From the NCBI RefSeq assembly GCF_030064675.1, contig NZ_CP116413.1, positions 281,001 to 345,000 of the forward strand: DNA of 64,000 bases, given 5' to 3'. The translations under genes and the position numbers were made by a program. The notes beneath the pieces were generated by a model, which made no database searches, had not been told where the DNA came from, and saw only the letters and a list, made by a program, of their open reading frames with translations. Shown in pieces: positions 47,166 through 54,069 of the stretch; positions within the stretch are counted from its first letter, which is position 1, and every line of letters begins with the position of its first letter. The DNA comes from Crossiella sp. CA-258035 (GTDB taxonomy: Bacteria; Actinomycetota; Actinomycetes; Mycobacteriales; Pseudonocardiaceae).

Positions 47166-48563
47166 TCAGCCGGTCCGGCGGCGGCGGGGCAGCGCGGCGA
47201 CCACGATCACCCCGCACAGCAACAGGATCATCCCGGTCCACAGCAGCGGAACCGTGGAGTACGCCGCGTTGGTGTAGGCCAGCGGCGGCGGCGCGTCCTT
47301 GCCCCTGGCCGGCGGCGGCGCGGGCGCGGGAGCGGGTGAGCTGGTCGCGGGCGTCACCGCCTTGCACACGTACCCACCGGCCGGGGCCGCCGCCCGGACC
47401 ACCTGCTCACCCAACGAGATCTGCACCAGCGAGCTCGGCAGACCGGGCAGCTTCAACGCATCCGTGGGCAGCAGCGCGAGGTCCAGTAGCCGCGCCACCG
47501 CGCCCACCGCAGCCCCGTCCCGCTTCTCGTTCACCTGCGCGATGGACAGCCGCAGAATCCCGATGTCCAGCTGCCGCAACGCATCCCCACCCGGCAGCGG
47601 CCCGCTGACCGGCACGTCCAGCTTCGGCGCCGCCGCGTCCAGCTTGCCGAGCTCCTTGCCACCACGGGAGATCCGCAACACCGGAGCCTCGTACTTCACC
47701 GTCGAGGTCTTGGCATCGCCCGTCGAGGTCGCCACCAGCTTCGGCGCGCTGACCACGTCGATCCGCACCTCACCCGGCGTGCCCGCCAGCAACTGGATGC
47801 TCGCCACCTGCACCGTGGAGGTCGCCTGCACCGCTTTCCCTTGCCGCCCAGGCACATCCACCAGCCGAACGGTCGACCGCGCACTCAGCGTGTCCGGCAA
47901 CCGCAACAACGACCCGCCCCCGGGCAACAGCCCCGGAATCGCGGGGATCACGTTCACCGCGGACAAGCTCGCCAACGAGGTCCGGGCATCGGAGATCGGC
48001 TCCACACAGGGCCCGAGCTTCTCATCCCACCGCGCGTGCACACTGCCCTCGAGCAGCCCCAGCTTCACCAGCGCGTCCAGCGGCGAGGCAGGCGGCGTCA
48101 ACCCACCGGTGAGCGGCTTCGGATTGTCCGGGATCGCCATCTGCGCCAACGAGCCGGGCAACCGGGGCGCCCGCCCGTTCACCGCGAACCCGGCAGGCGA
48201 GGACTCCGCGATGGCCCGCTCGAAGAACTGCACCGCCTGCGAGTTCACCTGCGCCGAAGCCAGCCCCAGCCCCAGCTCACCCACGGCCTGCTTGGGCAGC
48301 TTCTTCTCATCCTCATCGGTCAACCCAGGCGAGTTGGTCTGCACCGCCCCCGGCAACACCCGGATGATCCCCAGCCCCGTCCCCGCGTCAGCCACCAACG
48401 GCGGGAACTTGGGCGCGTTCGGATCGGTGAGCGGCGGCTGGTTCGGATCCACCGGCCCCGGCACCGGCGTGGTCGGCGGCGGCGCCGCCCCGGCCACCGG
48501 CCCCAGCGCGAGCAACACAACAGCAGGCAGAGCACAGACAACGGATAGGCGGCGTGCACGCAT
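47166..48563 (-). CDS. Surface protein with signal peptide and C-terminal anchor
   Basis: 465 residues, no named family. Signal (RRLSVVCALPAVVLLALGPV), a Pro-rich start (PPPTTPVPGPVDPNQPPLTD), a beta-rich ectodomain with repeated strands such as STVQVASIQLLAGTPGEVRI and STVKYEAPVLRISRGGKELG, a Pro/Ala linker and a single helix (LLWTGMILLLCGVIVVAALP) ending in Arg. It should be displayed on the membrane exterior with the tail inside. ATG at 48563 has GAGGAGG about 9 bases upstream. It is monocistronic and convergent with the GH88 gene. Confidence 0.75.
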   Translation of the reverse strand: MRARRLSVVCALPAVVLLALGPVAGAAPPPTTPVPGPVDPNQPPLTDPNAPKFPPLVADAGTGLGIIRVLPGAVQTNSPGLTDEDEKKLPKQAVGELGLGLASAQVNSQAVQFFERAIAESSPAGFAVNGRAPRLPGSLAQMAIPDNPKPLTGGLTPPASPLDALVKLGLLEGSVHARWDEKLGPCVEPISDARTSLASLSAVNVIPAIPGLLPGGGSLLRLPDTLSARSTVRLVDVPGRQGKAVQATSTVQVASIQLLAGTPGEVRIDVVSAPKLVATSTGDAKTSTVKYEAPVLRISRGGKELGKLDAAAPKLDVPVSGPLPGGDALRQLDIGILRLSIAQVNEKRDGAAVGAVARLLDLALLPTDALKLPGLPSSLVQISLGEQVVRAAAPAGGYVCKAVTPATSSPAPAPAPPPARGKDAPPPLAYTNAAYSTVPLLWTGMILLLCGVIVVAALPRRRRTG

Positions 48564-48800
48564 CAGCCCGGGTCCTCCTCGCGGCAGCACAGGCGACGCG
48601 GCCGATGAGACCGGCGTCACGCAAGGCCTAACGACGGGGGGTACTGCGGGTAACGCAACCGACCAACTCGATCACCCACGCGCTGGTGCGCGGACGACGG
48701 GGCACCCAGCGGCGCCGAGCTGCGGAAACCCAGTCTGATCTGGGAAGATCGGACCTGGCTTGGGAGTGCCGGACAGCTACCGCTAGACTCTGCTTGTCTC

Positions 48801-48874
48801 GCCGCCTTAGCTCAGTCGGCTAGAGCGACGCACTCGTAATGCGTAGGTCAAGGGTTCGACTCCCTTAGGCGGCT
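48801..48874 (+). tRNA. tRNA-Thr (anticodon CGT)
   Basis: 74-base cloverleaf: acceptor GCCGCCT pairing with AGGCGGC, D arm with GCTCAGTCGGCTAGAGC, anticodon loop CTCGTAA (48833-48839, anticodon 48835-48837) and T arm AGGGTTCGACTCCCT; CCA is not encoded. Its 3' half is the integration target of the element that follows. Confidence 0.95.
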
Positions 48875-48875
48875 C
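48837..48875 (+). repeat. Left attachment-site repeat (attL core)
   Basis: 39 bases running from the anticodon loop to one base past the tRNA-Thr 3' end, identical to 52594-52632. The preceding bases differ, so the repeat edge is sharp. Confidence 0.9.
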
Positions 48876-48883
48876 GCGAGATG

Positions 48884-48917
48884 ACCAGGGCGTTTCCGGT
48901 TCCGGAGGCGCCCTGGT
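48884..48917 (+). terminator. Element-borne terminator after tRNA-Thr
   Basis: 9-bp perfect arms ACCAGGGCG and CGCCCTGGT around a 16-base centre, 10 bases after the tRNA. The element seems to bring its own terminator, since the original one is now at 52639-52677. Confidence 0.6.
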
Positions 48918-49036
48918 CTGCGCCTGGGGTTGCAGTTCGGCCGGTCCGTCGCCGTTCAGTCCTACAGGGCTGACCCCATCCGCCCCGCCCCGTCTCGCTT
49001 CGTCAGGTCGCTGACATGGGTGTAGTTCTGCGTGAT

Positions 49037-49056
49037 TCACCTAGTCGTCTAGGTGA
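49037..49056. promoter_or_regulatory. Perfect palindrome TCACCTAG-TCGT-CTAGGTGA
   Basis: 8-bp arms and a 4-base centre, followed within 40 bases by AGAGGAG but by no gene in the plus direction. It is probably an operator whose gene was deleted. A related sequence (GACGGCTAGATGAGT) occurs in the GntR-NUDIX intergenic region at about 49913-49927. Confidence 0.5.
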
Positions 49057-49118
49057 GTCTCAAAGCAAACAGAAGTCTAGAGGAGTGCAACTAGTCATCG
49101 CTTCCGCAACCACGAAGT

Positions 49119-49896
49119 TCAGTCGGTCGGGATGTCGTACTCCAGCACATGGACGTGCGCGATCTTCACGGTGTCGCACACCTCCACAGCCCGCTCCGAC
49201 TGGTCAAACGCCGTGCGCAGCAACGTGATCACCGGAACACCAGGCCCGATCTCCAACACCTTCCGCTCCTCCGGCGTCGGCATCCGGGCCGAGATCTCCT
49301 CCTTCACGTGCGCGAGCTCGCGCCCGGCCTCCGCCAGTCGCGCGTAGATGTCACCGGGCCTGGGGCTGGCCTCCGTGACGGCAGTCCCGGCCGCCACCTT
49401 CTCCGGGATGTACGACGTGGCGACCTCGATCGGTCGACCGTCCGCAAGGTAGCGCCGTGACCGCACGATGACCCGTTCCGAGGCGAGATCTCCAGCCGCT
49501 CAGCGATGTCCGCGGAGACAGTCTCGTTGGTTACGCGGATCTGATCAACACCGATTGAGTAGGCCGCGGCTTCGGCCTCCACGAGGAACGCCGGCTTTCC
49601 TTGCTCCCGGTGCTTCCTGGAGAACCGATCCGAAGCCAGCCGCCGCACGGGCGGAGCCGACCGCGCGAAAACACCCTTGCCATGTTCCGCGACGACCAGG
49701 CCTCACTACGCAGTTCCTGTATCGCCTGCCGAACCGTCATCCGAGCAACGCCGAAGTGCTCGATGAGCGCACTCTCCGAAGGGAGCTTTTCGCTCGCCGG
49801 GATTCGCCCAAGCTTGATTTGCTCACGCAGGAGATCGGCTATCTGACGGTAAGGTGAGCGATCGTCCGACCGATTGACAGTACCGAGATCCAGCAC
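49119..49896 (-). pseudogene. GntR (HutC/KorSA-like) regulator with two frameshifts
   Basis: Three consecutive frames give one GntR protein: winged helix SPYRQIADLLREQIKLGRIP with PSESALIEHFGVARMTVRQA; then, in another frame, GLVVAEHGKGVFARSAPPVR to VTNETVSADIAERLE; then RSRRYLADGRPIEVATSYIP to HVLEYDIPTD, a UTRA-type effector domain. One base is missing near 49701 (GAGGCC for an expected GAGGGCC on the minus strand) and one near 49485. If real, the repressor is dead. It probably controlled the element's transfer or maintenance genes. Confidence 0.85.
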
Positions 49897-49903
49897 AGCT
49901 CAC

Positions 49904-49943
49904 TCTCTCATAGACGGCTAGATGAGTTCTGTCTCTCATAGAC
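49904..49943. promoter_or_regulatory. Direct repeats in GntR-NUDIX divergent promoter
   Basis: TCTCTCATAGAC occurs at 49904-49915 and 49932-49943; the second copy extends to the imperfect palindrome GTCT-CTCAT-AGAC. These are likely binding sites for the GntR repressor. Confidence 0.5.
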
Positions 49944-49967
49944 CACCCTCGAAGGAAAGTGGAGGGC

Positions 49968-50396
49968 ATGACCGACACGCACAAGTACTCAGTCAGCGTC
50001 GCCGGAATCGTCGTCACCGACCGCGACCGCGTGCTGGTCATCCGACGCGGGGACAACGGCCATTGGGAGCCGCCAGGTGGAGTACTCGAACATGACGAGA
50101 CGTTCGAGGAGGGGATAATGCGAGAAGTGCAAGAGGAGACCAGAATGCTGGTTCACGTTGGCAACCTTACCGGTGTCTATAAGAATATGGCTCAAGACAT
50201 TGCCGCCCTGACATTCCGGTCTCTCCCCATTTCTGCTGACGTTAAGGGTGCGGATGAAGCTGCGGACGTTCGCTGGATGACATTGCCTGAGATTGAGTCA
50301 GTTATGGCCCCAGTTCGCGCCGTGAGGGTTACGGATTCTATCCGTAGCCATGATAGATTCAATCATTCAATTTGTCTCTTGCACTCTAGGTTGTAA
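49968..50396 (+). CDS. NUDIX hydrolase
   Basis: 142-residue NUDIX-fold pyrophosphohydrolase. The box reads GGVLEHDETFEEGIMREVQE with ET following, matching Gx5Ex7REUxEE. The substrate (nucleoside diphosphate derivative) cannot be told. It is divergent from the GntR pseudogene, the arrangement seen in pSAM2-like elements. The 5' half has host-like composition and the last third is AT-richer. The ATG at 49968 is near GGAGGG; a GTG at 49959 is an alternative start. Confidence 0.88.
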   Translation: MTDTHKYSVSVAGIVVTDRDRVLVIRRGDNGHWEPPGGVLEHDETFEEGIMREVQEETRMLVHVGNLTGVYKNMAQDIAALTFRSLPISADVKGADEAADVRWMTLPEIESVMAPVRAVRVTDSIRSHDRFNHSICLLHSRL

Positions 50397-50407
50397 TGAG
50401 TGTGGAG

Positions 50408-51853
50408 CTATTTGCTATCTTTCTTCTTTCGTGTGAAAGTCTTCTTCTCTGGAGCTTCCGGAGCGCTTGTACCGGTAAACTTTTGCCAGGCTGCTGATCC
50501 GCCGCCCTTGCCGGGTACGCGTTCAATCTGCTGTCTGCCGGCAAGTCGGTAGAATAGTGTCTTGACGGTGTTTTCTGATCCGATCCCGGTGAGTTGTCGG
50601 ACTGTCTTGTTGGTAATTTCCGGAAATTTATCCAGATAATCCATAATCATCTGCTCGGGCGAGGCAAGCTTCTGATGCTTAATTTCAACGATAACAGAGT
50701 GGGCTGACTCGCGAATAATTGGCTGCTTTAGCTTAAGTTTCTTCATGGCCGCAAAAGCAGTGTTGAGACCCTCGCCGATATCCTTGTTTGGCGGATCGGG
50801 AAACTTGTTGATCCAGCGAACAATGCTGCCATTTCGGGAGTAGCGTTCACTCAGGATATTCTCTGCGGTAATGTGTGCTGGTAGTTTCCCAGGGCTTTCG
50901 ATCTCAACTCTGTTGTCGAAGATTCGCACGTGGACGTCGTCGGCTGTGCCGTAATCCCGATGCAAGACAGCATTTGTGATGATCTCATGCAGGGTTTCTT
51001 TCGGATACTCGATGTACTCAAGCCCGGAAGGACCAAGAAGCTGGATTTCTTGGATCAGCTCAGTCGTCTTCTCTACCGCTGCGTAGATCTGCTTGTATAG
51101 GCAGCCTTCAATTGTGATTGGCGAGAAGGCAAGGTTCTCGCGCGAGCCCTCTTGGTCGGTCGTTTTATATCGATAAATCTTGATGGCTGAGCGCTTTGGT
51201 AACGCCGCTTGTGGTTCGTCGCCAAAAAGCAGAACTGCCGCTACTGTCGGCTTTTCTCCGTGTCTGAGAAGTTGCTTGCCGAGAAATATTTCCGGCTCAA
51301 CAATAGGGACAATCGAAAGCATGAACTCAATTATCGTTTCAGAGTTGCTTACGAAGTTCAGCGGGACGGAAACGGTCTCAGTTTCAAATGATGTGATCCC
51401 CTTATTTCGGTTCAGTACTTGAAGCGCTTCTTCGGTCCTTACGGGGATATTCTGGGCACCTCGACGAATAAATGGATTTCCGTCTGTTGCCTTTTTGATA
51501 TCTTTGGACTTCTGGATGTTTACTCGAAGTACTAGGCCATCTCTGCCGGATGCCTTCTTTAGGAACTCGTAACTGAAGTATTGGCCAAGCGGGAAAAGGT
51601 CCTCGAAAGCTTGTATGTGACCGTTTGCATCCTCAATCTGTGAGAATCCTCGCCACTTCCTCTTGTTCTCCCCCTTGTCTTCGTCAATTCCTATGTATAG
51701 TTCTCCTCCGTCGGTATTGGCAAACGCAGCAATTGATCTACTCAGTTTCGACGGAGCAACTTCGATGGCCTTCAGGTCAGCAAAGTGACCCTCTTCAAGG
51801 GTGAGAACTCTAGTTATCTCGCCCTGGGTCACTGTGGTGACTTGGATTGACAT
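50408..51853 (-). CDS. Schlafen AlbA_2 domain ATP-binding protein, low GC
   Basis: 481 residues. The N-terminal part is an AlbA_2/Schlafen-type domain (EEGHFADLKAIEVAPSKLSR, IAAFANTDGGELYIGIDEDK), then a central part with FIRRGAQNIPV, then an HATPase_c_4-like domain (YPKETLHEIITNAVLHRDYG, VRIFDNRVEIESPGKLPAHI) and a winged helix near MIMDYLDKFPEITNKTVRQL; the tail is Lys-rich. Such proteins act as regulators or, in islands, as putative defence factors. The codon use is AT-rich, with codons such as AAA, ATT and GAA rare elsewhere here, so it is foreign even to the element. The start could be ATG at 51853 or TTG at 51859. Confidence 0.85.
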   Translation of the reverse strand: MSIQVTTVTQGEITRVLTLEEGHFADLKAIEVAPSKLSRSIAAFANTDGGELYIGIDEDKGENKRKWRGFSQIEDANGHIQAFEDLFPLGQYFSYEFLKKASGRDGLVLRVNIQKSKDIKKATDGNPFIRRGAQNIPVRTEEALQVLNRNKGITSFETETVSVPLNFVSNSETIIEFMLSIVPIVEPEIFLGKQLLRHGEKPTVAAVLLFGDEPQAALPKRSAIKIYRYKTTDQEGSRENLAFSPITIEGCLYKQIYAAVEKTTELIQEIQLLGPSGLEYIEYPKETLHEIITNAVLHRDYGTADDVHVRIFDNRVEIESPGKLPAHITAENILSERYSRNGSIVRWINKFPDPPNKDIGEGLNTAFAAMKKLKLKQPIIRESAHSVIVEIKHQKLASPEQMIMDYLDKFPEITNKTVRQLTGIGSENTVKTLFYRLAGRQQIERVPGKGGGSAAWQKFTGTSAPEAPEKKTFTRKKKDSK

Positions 51854-52593
51854 AGGCAAGATCCTGTCATGAATAGGGTGTTGGAACTAGTGCTTCTTGC
51901 TCGGCCTGCCGAGTGAGTAACTGGCAAGTGCGTGTTGCCGAATTCGACTCTATGGGACCAAGGCGCGCCGCCGGGCGGCGCGCGGTGGGTGCGCTCGGCG
52001 TGCGCCAGGCGCACCCACCCGGACAAGGCCGCCATCCGCTTCGCTGCGGCGGCCGGTCTGTCGCCGCGCCCGGCGACGCGGGCAGTTCCTCTCGCACCGG
52101 TAGCCGCGCCGTCCAAGAACCGATCTGCCAGCCGGGGCCAGGCCGTCACGGTCGCCCGCCGGGTGACCCGCCTGAGCTGGTTCGGGCGATCGACGCCCGA
52201 CGACGCTCGGCGCCGACGGCCAACGAGTATCGGCAGACGCTCAGCGCAGCGGCTCAACGCCAGTGGCTGACGGAGCCAGGTCGACTCATCCGGGCGCGCG
52301 CAGCGCAGCCGCCAGCAGTGGCTCGGAGCCTTGTCGACGGGCGGTTCGGCGGTCATGCCCGTTCGTCGAACGGCCCGGCCTAGGCGTGTCGCGTGTGGAC
52401 GAAGATGCGCCGGATGGAGACGTGAACGTTACCGCTCCGACGCTGGTGAGGGCGGCTCAGTGGCTGCGGTCAGGGTTGCAGTTCGAGTTAAAGTTCGGGG
52501 CGATCCGACGCCGTTCGCGGTTGTCCGTCCAACCCCGCAGACCGGCAATGCGAACCAGGTCGAACCCCGGCGGACTGGGCTTGACCTGACCCC
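51854..52593. other. Non-coding right end of the element
   Basis: No gene supported in six frames; open frames here give Arg/Ala-rich translations without motifs, and no recombinase His-x-x-Arg...Tyr pattern was seen. It holds two adjacent strong inverted repeats at 51965-52019 and returns to high GC. It may be decayed transfer or replication DNA. Confidence 0.6.
51965..52019. repeat. Two adjacent inverted repeats
   Basis: First, GCGCCGCC-G-GGCGGCGC (51965-51981). Second, 11-bp perfect arms GGTGGGTGCGC (51984-51994) and GCGCACCCACC (52009-52019) with a 14-base loop. They may form a terminator for the AlbA-type gene's upstream neighbour, or an origin or processing site. Confidence 0.7.
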
Positions 52594-52632
52594 TAATGCG
52601 TAGGTCAAGGGTTCGACTCCCTTAGGCGGCTC
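52594..52632 (+). repeat. Right attachment-site repeat (attR core)
   Basis: 39-base copy of 48837-48875: the 3' half of tRNA-Thr without its 5' half. It marks the original chromosomal end of the tRNA gene. Confidence 0.9.
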
Positions 52633-52638
52633 AGCAAG

Positions 52639-52677
52639 CAGAAGACCTAGGTCAGCACATGTGACCTGGGTCTTCTG
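52639..52677 (+). terminator. Original tRNA-Thr terminator, now displaced
   Basis: 16-bp stem (two G-T pairs) with a 7-base loop directly after attR. It is 3.76 kb from the intact tRNA because of the insertion. Confidence 0.8.
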
Positions 52678-52722
52678 CCGTTCGGGGCCCGGTTCTGTCG
52701 GGGTGATCCGGAAGATGGCGGG

Positions 52723-53028
52723 GTGACTTCAGCGATGGCGCGATGCGAACGTTGTGACCTGCCCGTGGGCCAGTGTCCGCACACCCGGCGGCGGGTCGTG
52801 GTGCGCACCGAACCGGATCTCATCCTGGTGAGCCGGACCAACACCGCGCACCTGCCCGGCGCCTGCAACCACGACGCCCCGCCCGACTACCGGGGCTGGG
52901 GCGAGATCCGCGGGGTGCCGCGGGCCTGGGAGCGGTTGGGCAACGCCGAGGCCATTCCCGCGACCGGTGGGGACAATCCCGCGCGGGTGGCGGACAAGCG
53001 GTGCCGGCACTGTGCCGCCTCGAGTTGA
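52723..53028 (+). CDS. Small protein with cysteine pairs
   Basis: 101 residues, no named family. The N terminus has a zinc-ribbon-like MARCERCDLPVGQCPH, the C terminus KRCRHCAASS, so two Cys pairs could bind one metal. Between them are a beta-like stretch and Pro/Gly turns. GGAAGA lies 7 bases before GTG 52723; ATG 52735 is an alternative start. Confidence 0.6.
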   Translation: MTSAMARCERCDLPVGQCPHTRRRVVVRTEPDLILVSRTNTAHLPGACNHDAPPDYRGWGEIRGVPRAWERLGNAEAIPATGGDNPARVADKRCRHCAASS

Positions 53029-53032
53029 GGCT

Positions 53033-53120
53033 GGTCAGCCCATCGACTTCTGGCCGTCGAGGGACTCGCGGATGATGTCCGCGTGGCCGGCGTGCTGGGC
53101 GGTTTCGGCGATCAGGTGGG
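53033..53120 (+). repeat. 88-bp direct repeat, copy 1
   Basis: Identical to 53543-53630, covering the 3' ends of the two DinB genes, while their 5' parts are clearly diverged. Confidence 0.85.
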
Positions 53121-53538
53121 TGATCACCCGGCGGGCGGTCCACGAGCCCTTCTCGAACCAGGGGGCCTCGGGCAGGGGGTGGGCCACGTCCAGGGTGGGC
53201 AGGGTGGCGATGAGGGCGTCGGTGCGCTGGGCGGTTTCGGTGTAGCGGGCCAGCAGCGCCGCCAGGGTCTCGCCGGGCTTGGGGGTGAAGGTGTCGGTCC
53301 AGGTCTCGCCTGCTTCCTCGTCCCAGGTCATCACCTCCTGGCCGTGCTGGATGAAGTGGGCCCAGCCCGCTTCGGCGCCGTCGACGTGCTTGATCAGGCC
53401 GGCCAGGGTGAGCTCGCTGGCGGTGGTGCGCTGGGTGGCCTGCTCGTCGGTGAGGTTCTGGGTGGTCAGGCGGAGGAAGTTCCGGGCGTTGGCGAGCGCG
53501 TCGAGCAGGTCGGCGCGCTCGCCCGTCGGCGTGGTCAT
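53035..53538 (-). CDS. DinB / DUF664 family protein, copy 1
   Basis: 167-residue four-helix DinB-like protein (mycothiol-dependent enzyme superfamily). It starts ERADLLDALANARNFLRLTT, has LIKHVDGAEAGWAHFIQHG with the first metal His, and HLIAETAQHAGHADIIRESL with the other two His. The role could be a thiol-dependent transferase or isomerase; the substrate is unknown. The 3' end is identical in DNA to the neighbouring paralogue. Confidence 0.88.
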   Translation of the reverse strand: MTTPTGERADLLDALANARNFLRLTTQNLTDEQATQRTTASELTLAGLIKHVDGAEAGWAHFIQHGQEVMTWDEEAGETWTDTFTPKPGETLAALLARYTETAQRTDALIATLPTLDVAHPLPEAPWFEKGSWTARRVITHLIAETAQHAGHADIIRESLDGQKSMG

Positions 53539-53542
53539 CTCG

Positions 53543-53630
53543 GGTCAGCCCATCGACTTCTGGCCGTCGAGGGACTCGCGGATGATGTCCGCGTGGCCGG
53601 CGTGCTGGGCGGTTTCGGCGATCAGGTGGG
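53543..53630 (+). repeat. 88-bp direct repeat, copy 2
   Basis: Partner of 53033-53120, offset 510 bases. Confidence 0.85.
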
Positions 53631-54069
53631 CGAAGACCCGGCGGGCGGACCAGGCGGCGCCCGGCTCGAACCAGGGGGCCTCGGGCAGGGGGTGGGCCAG
53701 GTCGAGGCTGGGCAGGGTGGCGATCAGCTCGTCGGTGCGCTGGGCGATCTCGGCGTAGCGGGCCAGCAGCACCTCCAGGGTCTCCGCCTCGCTGATGTTC
53801 CAGGCCTCGGCCCAGTCGGTCTCCTCCATCGCCATGGCCGAGGGGCCTTCCAGGATGAAGTCGACCCAGCCCTTCTCGGTGTTCGCCACGTGCTTGATCA
53901 GCTTGGCGATGGTCAGCTCGCTGACGGTGGTGTTCTTGTTCGCCTGCTCGTCGGTCAGCCCCTGCGCGGTGTGCCGGAGGAAGAACCGGGTCTTGCCCAG
54001 GGTCTCCAGCAGGTCGGCGCGCTCGCCGGTCAGAGTGGTGTCGGTGCTGATCGGTGCGGAGCTGGTCAT
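53545..54069 (-). CDS. DinB / DUF664 family protein, copy 2
   Basis: 174-residue paralogue of the preceding gene: ERADLLETLGKTRFFLRHTA, LIKHVANTEKGWVDFILEG, and the same C-terminal HLIAETAQHAGHADIIRESL. It lies 6 bases upstream of copy 1 in the same direction, probably one operon. GAGGAAGG precedes the ATG. Confidence 0.88.
   Translation of the reverse strand: MTSSAPISTDTTLTGERADLLETLGKTRFFLRHTAQGLTDEQANKNTTVSELTIAKLIKHVANTEKGWVDFILEGPSAMAMEETDWAEAWNISEAETLEVLLARYAEIAQRTDELIATLPSLDLAHPLPEAPWFEPGAAWSARRVFAHLIAETAQHAGHADIIRESLDGQKSMG

Follow-up and report, generated by a model that had tools for sequence, protein, structure and literature searches.

The window, i.e. the whole 64,000-nucleotide stretch of Crossiella sp. 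CA-258035 DNA analysed here, contains a single tRNA gene, tRNA-Thr(CGT), as determined by ARAGORN over its full length. The original prediction described a 39-bp exact direct repeat of the 3' half of this tRNA bracketing 3.76 kb, and we confirmed both its coordinates and its spacing of 3757, corresponding to a 3.76-kb insert. The two cores (attL and attR) are intact and identical at 39/39 positions, and without gaps the match can be lengthened to 44 nt at 95%. When the genome, a single contig of 9,170,171 bases, was searched with a 36-bp part of the core allowing up to 3 mismatches, only the attL and attR copies were found. A second tRNA array as the source of the repeat, which the prediction had itself named as a finding that would speak against it, was thus ruled out, the core being present in just two places of the genome. 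The GC content is 70.4% for the window, 57.8% for the insert and 48.8% for the AlbA-type gene within it. The features of the locus are as follows.

48801..48875, plus strand: tRNA-Thr (anticodon CGT), the insertion target, whole at the left end (ARAGORN; Rfam tRNA, 70.7 bits)
48837..48875, plus strand: attL core, 39 bp, the tRNA 3' half (exact repeat)
48883..48918, no strand: terminator-like hairpin just inside attL (fold of -36.9 kcal/mol, computed without a shuffled control)
48962..49036, minus strand: truncated tyrosine integrase, final 24 codons with the stop (identical to the tRNA-Thr integrase of genome G029 at 17 of 23 aligned residues, E 9.6e-11)
49033..49037, no strand: fusion point, where the integrase stub meets pra-korSA intergenic DNA (homology to L042 begins at 49036)
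49041..49052, no strand: palindrome CTAGTCGTCTAG, putatively operator-like (same letters twice in the matching part of L042)
49119..49896, minus strand: korSA-like GntR/UTRA repressor gene, broken (Pfam GntR and UTRA; tblastn with the 267-aa L042 relative)
49959..50396, plus strand: pif-like NUDIX gene with an open 145-aa frame (Pfam NUDIX; alignment with 8 relatives)
50408..51859, minus strand: cargo gene, open frame for a Schlafen/AlbA_2 plus HATPase_c_4 protein of 483 aa (Pfam SLFN_AlbA_2 and HATPase_c_4)
51930..52230, plus strand: GC-rich attR-end stretch, conserved in AICEs (homology to AICEs)
51937..51984, plus strand: core motif of ~48 bp, its second half an inverted repeat, a candidate cis-acting transfer/replication site (pattern searches)
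52594..52632, plus strand: attR core, 39 bp, identical to attL (exact repeat)
52638..52678, no strand: terminator-like hairpin right of attR (counterpart directly 3' of the tRNA in genome G002)

Inverted sequences resembling the left-end hairpin come after the core in relatives also. In an Rfam search of 48500-53000 at E up to 1, the only matches were the tRNA itself and, below threshold, an antisense match to it. To the right of the insert, at 53033-54069, lie two adjacent similar genes of 167 and 174 aa, whose DNA repeats are 73-96% identical; the pair is a tandem duplication.

A GntR gene, a NUDIX gene and a low-GC AlbA-type gene had been predicted in the insert. The latter two were upheld by the Pfam domains in their open frames and, for the AlbA-type gene, by its GC content, while for the first the GntR/UTRA homology is present but the gene is broken. 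Pfam placed the UTRA half at 49119-49466 and the GntR half at 49531-49896, and the 267-aa GntR protein of L042 matched the window in three frames (tblastn); these frame changes are read from short indels in a single assembly and may include sequencing error. The Nudix box, read against what we take to be its consensus, is REVQEETRM, in which the Gly present in 8/8 aligned relatives is replaced by Arg. The same GntR and NUDIX genes (81% and 62% identical, respectively) are located between pra and the motif in a congener AICE that possesses int, rep and tra, which agrees with the suggestion that they form a pSAM2-like regulatory module; by homology, we identify the pair as a korSA-pif-type module of AICEs. 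Among 150 genomes, the cargo gene has its closest relative (77% identity) in G198, next to int-, rep-, tra- and pra-like genes; in a dN/dS comparison of the two, dS was saturated and no ratio was obtained. PADLOC gave only partial matches to pAgo-linked systems, and such a function was not accepted for the cargo.

Searches of the insert for INT, REP, TRA and PRA (tblastn, E 1e-5; Pfam on the main frames) gave no matches. The earlier observation that no integrase is seen therefore holds for a full integrase, as it does for rep and tra, but not for its last 24 codons and stop, which survive at 48962-49036. The minus strand just inside attL encodes ITQNYTHVSDLTKRDGAGRMGSAL followed by a stop, located 86 bp from the core as compared to 92 bp in G029. 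This stub was compared with 25 integrase frames, 11 resident in the genome and 14 from fetched elements (one of the latter, from L044, duplicates a resident one). Its four best matches were integrases of elements residing in the same tRNA-Thr core, namely those of G029 (E 9.6e-11) and of G101, G045 and G004 (E 7e-7 to 9.9e-7); the next best was a resident integrase at E 0.07, against 0.14 for a reversed-stub control. The four elements are 9-15 kb long and belong to other genera; their matches are not independent, as G101 and G045 are of one genus with integrases 94% identical. Three of the four integrases are ~71% identical to one another. Resident integrases showed 24-30% identity to the tRNA-Thr ones over longer parts and up to 44% over short parts. 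A search of the genome for an integrase using the same core, as had been recommended, retrieved no member of the tRNA-Thr subfamily among the 11 resident tyrosine recombinases (PF00589 matches, serine integrases being outside this search); a resident helper was thereby ruled out among these 11, none of which fits.

Homology of 75% to L042, an AICE of congener G001 carrying int, rep, tra, pra-like, GntR and NUDIX genes and the motif, begins at 49036, which is the end of the stub. The palindrome CTAGTCGTCTAG, a candidate repressor operator, opens the part common to the window and L042. Since the stub ends where the pra-korSA homology starts, a single deletion could account for the absence of int, rep, tra and pra; judged from the gene positions in L042 and L087, its size would be some 6-7 kb.

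The region 51930-52593, unassigned in the original prediction, contains sequence conserved in AICEs. The pattern GCCGAATTTGGCTCTATGGGATCAAGGCGCGCCGCC, allowing up to 3 mismatches, was found at 26 sites, including the window, in 17 of 100 relatives, and the reversed pattern gave no sites in the same relatives at the same threshold. RepSA was nearby at 17 of the 26 sites, and each of the other 9, including the window, was close to one or more matches to AICE-type regulator, NUDIX, pra or integrase genes. Among the RepSA matches listed, a motif site lay within 15 kb in 16 of the 56 scoring 300-360 bits (40 without a site) and in 0 of the 68 scoring at least 414 bits; G058, with a RepSA match of 251 bits, provided a further locus with a motif site. 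Looser matches with 4-5 mismatches were present in L044 and L101. L044 (10634-19998) is a second AICE of this genome, at about 1.842-1.852 Mb, with int, rep, tra, pra-like, regulator and NUDIX genes and a diverged motif; its att repeat was looked for but not found.

The motif was opposite to the rep strand in 20 of 20 loci having both, most of these loci having been picked via the motif. The exact degenerate pattern occurred in 70 stretches of contig records, of which 66 come, by title, from genera that we take to be Pseudonocardiaceae, three from Actinopolyspora (own order) and one from Rhodococcus. With up to 8 kb of sequence each, 45 of the 70 had an AICE gene match beside the motif and 25 had none. 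Stretches matching int, rep, tra or pra were opposite to the motif strand in 94 cases and on the same strand in 0, the 94 stretches not amounting to 94 genes because several queries may match one gene; NUDIX matches were on the same strand in 45 cases and on the opposite strand in 1. Positions -11 to -6, which lie outside the search pattern, were 97-100% conserved in 67 unique copies. At one position the window copy alone has C, whereas the other 70 of 71 exact pattern matches have T.

A reading of the motif region as structured RNA was rejected. RNAalifold on the 67 unique copies gave no covariation and only a 4-pair hairpin that hardly varies, and the fold of the window region was little better than those of shuffled sequences (z -1.66; 14/200 at least as good); the long stem-loops of this GC-rich region may reflect its GC content. 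The pattern was absent from the viral contigs searched. Plasmid records yielded one 83% match over 48 positions outside the core motif, in Roseomonas, which was treated as chance. Three strings of motif letters were not found in the literature searched, most subscription journals being outside its scope.

The site was examined in four kin genomes, G001, G002, G003 and G271. In the congener G002 the tRNA runs directly into the right flank of the window, and a single alignment (85%, 4 gaps) to the joined window flanks starts 55 bp upstream of the tRNA. The empty site expected in a related genome was thus found; to the left, the match reaches no more than 55 bp beyond the tRNA, and ~1 kb of other sequence lies between it and the remaining left flank. 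This site and the integrase stub bear out the predicted tyrosine-recombinase insertion at tRNA-Thr. The insert is absent from G003 and from the same-species G271, which have one core copy each and a hairpin like that of the element's left end following the tRNA; G271, although without the insert, is not a clean empty site. Between its tRNA-Thr and the right flank, G271 (L085 6568-7349) has ~0.78 kb containing a methyltransferase gene (Methyltransf_25, E 4.6e-19) and no second core. The G003 and G271 sites could be older scars that lost attR. In G001 a 36.6-kb element is followed by a second core and, in tandem, by a decayed 2.8-kb insert (L038 18622 to L039 1447). The ends of the 2.8-kb insert are 77% and 79% identical to the window and an internal GC-rich stretch is 66% identical, while its cargo is different; it holds two or three integrase pieces. 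An insert of 4.46 kb in another genus (L134 6286-10778), bracketed by 34 bp of tRNA-Ser, contains a regulator fragment, a NUDIX gene, an HD-domain gene, a 450-aa cargo gene and the motif; integrase, rep and tra were not detected in it.

The core pattern was present in 77 of 390 genomes. We analysed 19 core-to-core intervals from 15 genomes. Thirteen of these genomes have at least two copies on one contig; the other two are G001, in which the tRNA copy differs from the pattern at 4 positions, and G004, in which the copies have diverged further. One more forward-strand pair, in G288, is not among the 19, nor are two genomes whose copies sit on separate contigs. The integrase was a full frame in 9 intervals, a split frame in 1, a fragment only in 6 (window included) and not found in 3, as judged with a home-made profile that missed the window's own stub and may miss distant integrases. 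Full elements occupy the same tRNA-Thr core in G045, G101, G029 and G004. In G029 and G045 the order is int, RepSA-type rep, FtsK-type tra, pra-like gene, regulator, NUDIX, motif and attR; in our search the element of G101 gave no NUDIX match and that of G004 no regulator match. Thus, tRNA-Thr(CGT) is a recurrent AICE site in Pseudonocardiaceae, at which truncated integrases accumulate (6/19 intervals).

The target site, the empty site, the stub, the fusion point, the full-length relatives and the broken frame are directly observed, and on these we base the reading that the 3.76-kb insert is a decayed pSAM2-type AICE which lost int, rep, tra and pra by internal deletion, to which we assign a probability of about 0.92. 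It is flanked by direct repeats at a site that full AICEs also use, it retains 24 codons of an integrase together with the korSA-pif block, and it has lost at least one of int, rep and tra; the combination of Int, Rep and Tra that marks a functional AICE in PMC3218068 is absent. A pSAM2-type AICE of probably ~10 kb would have entered tRNA-Thr(CGT) by integrase recombination, duplicating the 39-bp core. A later internal deletion, presumably one event, would then have run from a point 24 codons short of the integrase stop to one between pra and korSA, taking with it the greater part of int and the whole of rep, tra and pra and leaving behind the korSA-like and pif-like genes, the AlbA-type cargo, the attR-end motif and both att sites. 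Such a remnant should no longer be able to excise, replicate or transfer itself. The repressor and NUDIX genes would have changed since, while the cargo frame remains open. Our searches found no parent combining this integrase with this korSA-pif pair, so the parentage is reconstructed from relatives of two kinds. The identical att cores and the open cargo frame count against decay, as these would also fit an element kept mobile.

The original prediction had left the choice between a decayed remnant and a satellite mobilised in trans. The boldest form of the latter, in which the insert is a cis-mobilisable mini-AICE whose motif is the clt or replication site of Pseudonocardiaceae AICEs, and small inserts with att sites, regulator-NUDIX genes, cargo and motif are a recurrent class moved by full AICEs, is very unlikely. 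It is also very unlikely that the insert is a cis-mobilisable or satellite element that kept its att sites, motif and an immunity-type gene and is mobilised upon entry of a tRNA-Thr AICE into the cell. This explanation retains some weight because both att cores are intact (attL and attR, 39/39); the motif is also still present, the 2.8-kb insert of G001 in tandem with the 36.6-kb element has homologous ends, a related internal stretch and another cargo, and the tRNA-Ser insert retains NUDIX, cargo and motif where integrase, rep and tra were undetected. Against it stand the 0 of 11 resident tyrosine recombinases of the right subfamily, leaving no compatible helper among the PF00589 matches of the genome, the broken repressor gene, the missing Nudix-box Gly and the C for T in the window copy of the motif, and other inserts at the tRNA-Thr site hold integrase fragments that vary in length, which fits repeated random deletion. 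A non-AICE island, with genes acquired in some other way and a tRNA repeat present by coincidence, is hardly credible, as the low GC of the cargo is outweighed by the G002 empty site, the integrase stub, the AICE synteny and the AICE motif. The remnant is therefore clearly favoured over the satellite, given the absence of a helper among the 11 recombinases and the changes in repressor, NUDIX and motif, which answers the earlier question.

The decayed AICE is in itself of a known kind, and the motif is the part worth following; its conservation and strand bias identify it as a strictly oriented DNA element of these AICEs. Whether it serves as their cis-acting transfer (clt) or replication site we consider an even chance. 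A defined candidate makes the DNA recognised by the Tra pump directly testable. CIMEs are cis-mobilisable elements, and the insert resembles them in having two att sites around cargo with no working recombinase; it differs in that no helper was found among the tyrosine recombinases of this genome and the repressor is broken.

In PMC3218068, Pif is a NUDIX protein for conjugal immunity, KorSA is a GntR repressor of pra, and tRNA-Thr is already named as a target of pSE211-type AICE integrases. The insert resembles the pSAM2-type AICEs of that account in its GntR (KorSA) and NUDIX (Pif) genes, tyrosine integrase and tRNA 3'-end target, and its full relatives do so in their RepSA and FtsK-type Tra, but the insert has lost rep, tra, pra and all but 24 codons of int. 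According to PMC9513070, no clt had been described for pSAM2. The same decay is described for decayed AICEs (DAICEs) in Streptomyces (PMC9513070). In contrast to these, the family and target are different here, being tRNA-Thr in Pseudonocardiaceae, and the korSA-like and pif-like genes and the attR-end motif also remain.
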